Shown one piece after another: positions 54,788 to 56,133 of a DNA stretch of 64,000 nt. Source of the DNA: Devosia sp. A16 (lineage in GTDB: Bacteria > Pseudomonadota > Alphaproteobacteria > Rhizobiales > Devosiaceae); the NCBI RefSeq assembly GCF_001402915.1, contig NZ_CP012945.1, positions 4,875,501 through 4,939,500 of the forward strand, read 5' to 3'. A program made the position numbers and the translations under genes. Below the pieces are notes generated by a model. That model did no database searches and was not told the DNA's origin. It was given only the letters and a program-made list of their open reading frames with translations. Each line of letters starts with the position of its first letter. Within the stretch, counting starts at the first letter, position 1.

Positions 54788-55771
54788 TCAAGCAGTTTCG
54801 GGTTGGTTGGGCTCCCAGCGACGGTTCTGGGTGAGCAGGGTGTTTGCGAGCACGACAAGCTTTCGCATCACCGCTGTGAGGGCGACCTTGGGCGGTTTGC
54901 CGGCGTTGCGCAGGCGCTGGTAGACGGCCTTGAGATCTGGATTGTAACGGGCGGCGCTGAGGGCGGCCATGTAGAGGGCGTTGCGTACCTGCATTCGACC
55001 ACCGCGGATGTGGCGTTGCCCCAGCCTGCGACCGCTATCGTCGGCAATGGGTGCCAAGCCAGCAAGCAGGGCAGCGGCCTTGGCCGAACACCGGCCCAGT
55101 TCGCTCAGTCCGGCCAGCAGCGCGGCAGCAGTGATGGCGCCGATGCCGGGGATGGACAGCAGGATGGCATAACGGCCGGCCAGCCCGGGATCGGCCTTGA
55201 TCAGTTGCTCGATCTTGGCCTCGAGGCGCTGCACATGGCCCTTGAGGCTGGTCAGGCGGCCCCTCAGTTCGGTCTTGAGGAACGACACCGTGGCCTGCTC
55301 CAGCCGGTTGCCCAGTGCGATCGCCTCGGTGCGGGCGGCAGTGTAAGCATTCACCAGTTCCTGCAACTGCTCGAGCTGCTGGGGCACCGGCTGGTTGGGC
55401 TGAGGAGCAAGGCTGTGGCCCATGACTGCCAACAGTCGCGCATCGATCCGATCGGTCTTGGCCAAGACCCCACACGCCTCGGCGAACAGCCGTGCCCGCA
55501 GCGGGTTGATCACCACCACCCCATAGCCCCAGGCACTCAGTGTCCGGAACGCCAGCCGGTGATACTTGCCGGTGGCTTCCAGAACCACGCGCTCAAGCTG
55601 CAGCCCCAGCTCGTCCAAGTGCCGCCGCAGTCGGCGTAACCCGAGCGGGGTGTTGGCCACCCGCCAACTCTGACCGCCAGGATGCAGATAGACATCCAGC
55701 CAGTCTTTACTCACGTCGATCCCGGCATAAACTGCCAGCGCGCTGATTGTGGACTCAACCTTGCCTTGCAT
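54788..55771 (-). CDS. IS110-family transposase (bridge-RNA-guided recombinase)
   Basis: From the ATG at 55771 this is a 327-residue protein. The N-terminal RuvC-like DEDD domain shows [28 protein letters not shown] and the pair of Asp in [15 protein letters not shown] coiled-coil linker follows ([25 protein letters not shown]). The C-terminal Tnp domain has [60 protein letters not shown] prefer this start over the ATGs at 55792 and 55789 because GGGGAG stands 10 bases before it and the upstream bases serve as donor guide. The gene looks intact. Confidence 0.93.
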
Positions 55772-55905
55772 GCGGGACTTGCTCCCCATCATCTGTTCAG
55801 GACCAGCGACACGGACAAACGGACCAAGCTCTCCCGCGGCTCAAACCAAGGGTCAGACGGTCCCGTCCATCCGGTCCCGGCCGGTCGCCACCGACCGGGA
55901 CCGCC
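55763..55905 (-). ncRNA. predicted bridge RNA of the IS110-family element
   Basis: Read on the minus strand, a strong hairpin (55903-55872, 14-bp arms with one mismatch and a CGCC loop) comes first. A target loop closed by GGACC/GGTCC follows. It holds CTGACCCTT (55856-55848), identical to the host flank at 55947-55939, and GGGAGAG (55835-55829), complementary to the minus strand of the other flank (GGGGAGAG, 54765-54772). A donor loop then holds ACAGATG (55796-55790), identical to the element's 3' end, and CATGCAAG (55772-55765), complementary to its 5' end. Small hairpins lie between the guides. This is the order known for IS621 bridge RNA. The exact 5' and 3' ends are inferred. Confidence 0.75.
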
Positions 55906-56133
55906 TACTCTGTACAGAGTCGGCTGCAATCAACATGCAAGGGTCAGGGTGAGGGGGCGCCAAGCGCACCGGTCCACCAAGTACCAGCCAACACTATTTG
56001 CCACCTCCGGATTGTACGACGCCCACACCGAGCCCTCAGCGCGCTTGGCACCCCTCACCCCAGCCCTCTCCCCAGAGGGGCGAGGGGGCGCGGTGGCACG
56101 GACAGTGCAAAAGTGTGGCCCCCGGAGAAGGGC

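Follow-up and report, generated by a model that had tools for sequence, protein, structure and literature searches.

The window, a stretch of 64,000 nucleotides from the genome of Devosia sp. A16, contains a complete insertion sequence of the IS110 family on its minus strand. A copy search combined with flank comparison placed the element at 54773–55941 (1169 bp). Its transposase gene is preceded by 170 nt of noncoding sequence 5′ of the ATG and followed by 15 nt 3′ of the stop codon (Table 1). The transposase matched the Pfam families PF01548 (DEDD_Tnp_IS110, DEDD RuvC-like) and PF02371 (Transposase_20), both above the curated cut-offs, and a phmmer search of the PDB at E up to 0.001 returned only ISCro4 (9t56) and IS621 (8wt6), which bears out the family assignment of the first-pass annotation of this DNA. 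Transposase residues D19, E65, D107, D110, and S246 align with active-site positions of IS621, the catalytic roles of which are given in the available part of PMC11208158. The aligned acidic residues and the serine were invariant in a 10-member alignment. The predicted start codon corresponds to the ATG at which the public annotation starts the gene in all five plasmid relatives fetched.

The genome search yielded four near-identical copies of the element. L002 is identical to the window copy, and L003 carries one substitution. The left end was set by L003, the left flank of which is divergent save for its last three bases. The right flank of all four copies is the same repeat over about 20 bases; therefore, the right end was set by the intact repeats, the empty site of a congener, and the other right flanks of the relatives. 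The copies, the intact repeats, and the empty site hold the ends at the positions proposed earlier and contradict a placement elsewhere. In copy L004 (G000:C1:1070896–1072065), a 1-base insertion splits the transposase frame.

Table 1. Features of the IS110-family element and its surroundings (window coordinates; LE, left-end position).
Feature	Position	Strand	Basis and remarks
Complete IS110-family insertion sequence	54773..55941	-	One copy of the CT core counted at the 5′ end; four copies, intact target repeats, empty site
Transposase CDS	54788..55771	-	Starts at the ATG inside the RDG; DEDD RuvC and Transposase_20 domains; alternative ATG upstream at 55792
Predicted bridge RNA	55765..55925	-	Consensus fold; 5′ end placed according to the predicted junction promoter
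5′ stem-loop	55873..55902	-	13 bp in the window copy; helix 1, 14/14 pairs with compensatory changes
Target-binding loop with 13-pair closing stem	55814..55871	-	Helix 2, 9/13 pairs with compensatory changes
Left target guide (LTG) CTGACC-CT	55849..55856 (LE 86–93)	-	Equals left flank plus core; swap test
Right target guide (RTG) GGGAG-AG	55829..55835 (LE 107–113)	-	Reverse complement of CT-CTCCC (core and right flank); swap test
Left donor guide (LDG) ACAGATG	55790..55796 (LE 146–152)	-	Identical to the element's right end; conserved across the clade
Right donor guide (RDG) CATGCAAG	55765..55772 (LE 170–177)	-	Reverse complement of CT-TGCATG (left end); contains the transposase ATG
Core CT (55940–55941) and left target CTGACC (55942–55947)	55940..55947	-	Sequence; CTGACCCTCTCCC occurs intact 17 times in the genome
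Core CT (54771–54772) and right target CTCCC	54766..54772	-	Sequence
-35-like TTGACC	54786..54791	-	Right end; spaced 17 nt from the -10-like box when the ends are joined in the circle
-10-like CATGTT	55932..55937	-	Left end
Inverted, uninterrupted copy of the palindromic target repeat	56043..56090	+	Sequence; 56041–56090 matches, inverted, the same repeat in L156

The left end was numbered on the transposase strand, so that LE position p equals window position 55942-p. Its layout comprises the 5′ stem-loop (LE 40–69), the target-loop stem, the LTG (86–93), the RTG (107–113), the closing stem, the LDG (146–152), a hairpin, and the RDG (170–177). The four guide matches reported by the first-pass annotation are all present in the sequence, at the places, on the strands, and in the order (LTG, RTG, LDG, RDG) described there, with some corrections at their edges. 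Eight bases of the 9-mer AAGGGTCAG, taken for host sequence repeated inside the element, are indeed target plus core, but the first A (on the plus strand) is the element's own base. The other flank, GGGGAGAG, was said to have its complement in the left end; seven of its eight bases pair with the guide, and one does not. The LDG matches the element end as claimed but excludes the core, with AT in the RNA against CT in the donor. The loops were described as closed by short stems; the stem of the target loop has 13 pairs with good covariation, and that of the donor loop only three nearly invariant pairs.

The probability of the guide matches arising by chance was assessed by shuffling the 168-nt left end (LE 17–184) 20,000 times with its dinucleotide composition preserved. 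Single guides were recovered at frequencies of 0.35% (LTG), 6.5% (RTG), 0.6% (LDG), and 0.05% (RDG). No guide was held in 18,521 shuffles, one in 1,466, and two in 13. None held three or four, in line with the earlier claim that four ordered matches have a low chance of occurring.

Three of the four copies are inserted in CTGACC-CT-CTCCCCAGAGGGG, which is part of a palindromic repeat. The uninterrupted repeat (CCCTGACCCTCTCCCCAGAGGGG) has five exact copies in the genome, and its slightly degenerate form was counted 41 times within two mismatches (control, 0). Intact CTGACCCTCTCCC sites number 17 (reversed-pattern control, 0) and ACCCTCTCCC sites 106 (reversed-pattern control, 8). The congener G011 aligns across the insertion without the element, and its empty site, near the junction, equals the two flanks of the window copy joined around one 2-base core. 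It departs from them in the core, where CG replaces CT, at one base further to the left, and at the end of the 39 bases displayed, the last few of which differ. Comparison of the element flanks with this empty site revealed no target duplication.

At copy L003, the left flank reads CTCTACC, and the LTG match is confined to the three core-proximal bases. Identical guides beside unrelated flanks had been named by the first-pass annotation as an observation that would speak against guiding; the left flank of L003 is in part such a case, but the right target of this copy is perfect. The variant target of the L003 type has 25 genome sites within one mismatch, 22 of which read CACTACCCTCTCCC. A full LTG match was found at three of the four copies versus 17 of the 106 unoccupied sites, a comparison that is weak with four copies and suggests that the outer LTG bases matter without being absolute.

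Relatives for the covariation analysis were drawn from plasmid elements and from 79 loci found in one scan of a genome-contig collection. The guide parser received 88 loci and parsed 41, with L114 not among them; the 47 skipped loci, which are truncated, decayed, or more remote copies, lacked a recognizable donor motif, recognizable target-loop landmarks, or both. The guide analysis did not extend to remoter IS110 families such as G024 and G099. To be parsed, a locus must carry donor-guide and end motifs that differ from those of the window element by at most 1 to 3 substitutions; the target guides and the outer flanks are left free. Because the parser selects these motifs, the parsed set cannot speak for the constancy of the donor guides and the core. 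The 41 loci include the four copies of the host genome and several near-identical loci, and identical guide–flank pairs were counted once. The right target was readable in 27 of the 41 loci and the left target in 39. This sampled 18 distinct guide–flank pairs with nine guides on the right side, and 33 pairs with 19 guides on the left.

The target guides tracked their own flanks. Over the five core-adjacent positions, the RTG matched its cognate flank with a mean of 4.65 of 5 as compared with 2.84 after swapping, and the LTG scored 4.45 versus 3.07 over six positions. None of the 20,000 swaps was as high in either case, and the covariation of guides with flanks, which the first-pass annotation had put forward as a check, was thereby seen in the 41 parsed relatives. 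Outward from the core, the right cognate match was 0.89, 1.00, 1.00, 0.85, 0.91, and 0.20 by position, against 0.72, 0.36, 0.56, 0.69, 0.52, and 0.21 for the swapped pairs. The corresponding left values were 1.00, 0.86, 0.88, 0.68, 0.62, 0.41, 0.26, and 0.33 (cognate) and 0.90, 0.87, 0.44, 0.31, 0.28, 0.27, 0.26, and 0.29 (swapped). The observed sum was reached by 0/20,000 swaps for the first 5 or 6 right positions and the first 4 to 8 left positions, and by 3/20,000 (0.00015) for the first 4 right positions. According to this profile, the covariation signal spans about five positions on the right and five to six on the left. LTG positions 1 and 2 from the core display little or no cognate excess, because they are nearly all C.

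Individual loci illustrate the agreement. The RTG of ISMno29 calls for CTTTCCC and that of L089 for CTCATTT, and the flanks read CTTTCCC and CTCATTT, respectively. In L078, the LTG GCATCC stands beside a GCATCC flank. Poor LTG matches were obtained for L003, L082, and some of L084–L088. The latter are five copies with identical guides in one MAG; their right flanks all begin with CTCTC and their left flanks vary, which suggests that the right guide dominates target choice in the clade.

A handshake guide is expected to pair the base after the RTG with donor position 7, according to the part of PMC11208158 available. Of the 28 rows with both bases read, 25 showed a Watson–Crick pair here, among them L089 with T opposite A, and L074 and L081 with A opposite T; L094 showed a wobble, and L080 and L111 showed mismatches. 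The 28 rows stem from an earlier guide parse without ISMno29 (L075), in which the LTG of L082 was mis-set. The donor guides are nearly constant within the clade, so they offer little variation to covary with the ends. In L131, a base is absent just after the ATG, and this locus is probably a dead copy.

The RNA fold was analyzed in an alignment of 23 rows, in which the window element occupies two rows of different extent. The consensus fold contains 38 pairs, 23 of which changed on both sides in a compensatory manner. Altogether, 96.9% of the cells were paired, and the covariation score was 0.438, as compared with 0.159 for the shuffled alignment and at most 0.105 for the slid one. Helices 4 and 5 of the donor loop are nearly invariant, have no compensatory change, and are indistinct in single-sequence folds. 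Folded as a single sequence (z = -5.4), the whole left end forms the 5′ stem-loop and the target loop; when the RNA is folded from its inferred start, the target loop is absent from the minimum-energy structure. Scanning Rfam at E up to 1 gave no match near the gathering score for the region. The MIR1437 and htlv_FSE matches scored far below their gathering scores and were rejected as chance.

The Devosia sp. A16 genome harbors two further IS110 families, namely B (L052–L056, five copies) and C (L018–L020, three copies), G000:C1. Their guide matches were aligned by eye, with the core as anchor. The guides of family B are LTG TCTCCC-CT, RTG CCTTGAG, LDG ACGGTTG, and RDG CATACAAG. Outside the core, its LTG fits at 6/6 positions in L052, L053, and L055, at 5/6 in L056, and at 2/6 in L054; its RTG fits at 7/7 positions in L054 and L056 and at 6/7 in the other three copies. 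The LDG and RDG fit the own ends of all five copies. In family C, the LTG CGCTTGC-CT, the RTG GGGGGAG, and the LDG ACAGTCG-CT each fit fully in all three copies, and no clear contiguous RDG was found in these copies. The window family (A) and families B and C differ in their donor guides; the LDG agrees with the family's own ends in all three, and so does the RDG in A and B. By these matches, the three IS110 elements of one genome carry three guide sets that largely fit their own targets. The targets of families B and C look palindromic by eye.

Since the target guides covary with the flanks, the fold is conserved, and two other families largely fit their own targets, the element is an IS110-group member of the bridge RNA or seekRNA kind known since 2024. 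The descriptions of RNA guidance in the IS110 family from that year (PMC11208160, PMC11187229) already include IS621, which targets REP sequences and has a CT core. IS621 (Durrant et al. 2024, PMC11208160; Hiraizumi et al. 2024, PMC11208158) shares with the window element the transposase domains, the catalytic positions, the guide strand rules, the CT core, and the palindromic-repeat target; its left-end RNA, its order of 5′ stem-loop, target loop, and donor loop, and its junction promoter have predicted counterparts in the window element. In both elements, the RTG is followed by a base that fits donor position 7 (C with G), and the RDG by one that suits target position 7 (G with C). However, the proteins are distant (phmmer E = 3e-32), and the guides and the target differ. 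In IS621, an RDG-like GCAAG precedes the annotated CDS start (position 483 of L161) by about 12 bases, whereas in the window element the predicted start codon lies within the RDG itself. In the E. coli IS621 loci (L161/L162), the LTG-like ATCGGGCCT is one base off the target ATCAGGCCT.

ISEc21 (Siddiquee et al. 2024, PMC11187229) likewise has an upstream noncoding region that yields the guide RNA, with the bottom-strand match before the top-strand match, a circle promoter, and no target duplication, but its target is different. IS1111 members have the noncoding region downstream of the transposase gene (PMC11187229); the window element, with its noncoding region upstream, lacks this trait of the IS1111 group. 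The nearest annotated relatives found were ISMno29 (Methylobacterium nodulans, NC_011887.1) and the Rhizobium plasmid elements, at 53–61% protein identity. They have the same left-end layout and similar donor guides but different target guides; for the right target, CTTTCCC in ISMno29 compares with CTCTCCC in the window element. ISPa11, ISPpu9, ISPpu10, and ISRm19 also insert into palindromic repeats (Tobes and Pareja 2006, PMC1525189), a likeness in insertion habit. The guide RNA was not yet known at the time of that paper.

With a high degree of confidence, we regard the locus as a mobile IS110-group element with a left-end bridge RNA that chooses the target and pairs the element's own ends. 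The ends, the guides, the target-guide covariation, the first two stem-loop folds, and the empty site can be read from the sequence comparisons; transcription, RNA binding, circle formation, and catalysis are expected from homology with IS621. Excision would join the two element ends around the CT core. The joined ends would build a promoter, and the left end would be transcribed into the bridge RNA. Such a promoter, rebuilt at the circle junction, is predicted from the sequence pattern TTGAC(N)-17-(C/T)ATG(T/A)T, which was obtained in 27 of the 27 elements with both ends found (of 41 parsed), spacings of 16 to 18 being allowed. The first RNA loop would pair with both target strands, the LTG with the left bottom strand and the RTG with the right top strand, and the second RNA loop would pair with the joined element ends. 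The DEDD/serine recombinase would exchange strands at CT, resulting in insertion without target duplication. The target of the window copy is CTGACC-CT-CTCCC inside the palindromic repeat.

The codon inside the RDG is ATG in 40 of the 41 parsed elements and GTG in L121, a count to be read with the parser's selection for this motif. A ribosome-site-like GGGAG stretch lies in the donor-loop hairpin of 39 of the 41, with GGGAA in L089 and AGGAG in L121. We found no description of an overlap between the RDG and the start codon in the open-licence literature; the term "start codon" is absent from the available text of PMC11208160 and occurs once in that of PMC11187229, in a data-curation note. An RDG that holds the predicted transposase start codon, unlike that of IS621, is possibly a new detail. 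Both the ATG inside the RDG and the GGGAG stretch are features to be expected if the folded left end served chiefly to regulate the transposase from its 5′ untranslated region, with the guide matches secondary. ISPpu9 presents a related theme, with a 5′-UTR that hides the ribosome site and, together with an antisense RNA, controls translation (PMC8450116, available in part). We nevertheless consider this reading very improbable, as a purely regulatory role would not make the loop bases covary with the genomic flanks, yet such covariation was observed. A regulator role is compatible with the guide role, so it would be at most an addition to it. In this clade, one RNA stretch could serve as both the RDG and the transposase start, with the likely ribosome site in the donor-loop hairpin, and could act as a built-in switch between enzyme and guide RNA. 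We offer this tentatively and think it rather unlikely to hold. If it were true, a transcript folded as bridge RNA would be untranslated, and a translated transcript would be unable to guide.

That the protein alone recognizes the target and the ends, with the left-end matches as relics of a captured target, is in keeping with the discussion of IS110 target choice before 2024 as site-specific recombination without RNA (PMC1525189, available in part), but we judge it extremely improbable, for the RTG and RDG are complements rather than copies, the guides track the flanks in relatives from unrelated places and hosts, the target guides sit in a fold kept by compensatory changes, and purified IS621 requires its RNA (available part of PMC11208160).

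As a bridge RNA element, the window copy and its relatives add a mostly alphaproteobacterial clade of RNA-guided recombinases. The natural guide variants, with targets readable from the flanks, amount to ready guide–target pairs accompanied by candidate enzymes, and the overlap of guide and start codon poses a testable regulatory question.

Beside the element, inspection by eye indicated two genes on the minus strand of window 53951–54585, one for a VapC-like PIN-domain toxin and one antitoxin-like. The segment 53856–54667 is unmatched at the equivalent site of the congener G011 (L156), and 53951–54652 matches G003 (L158) at 80%.
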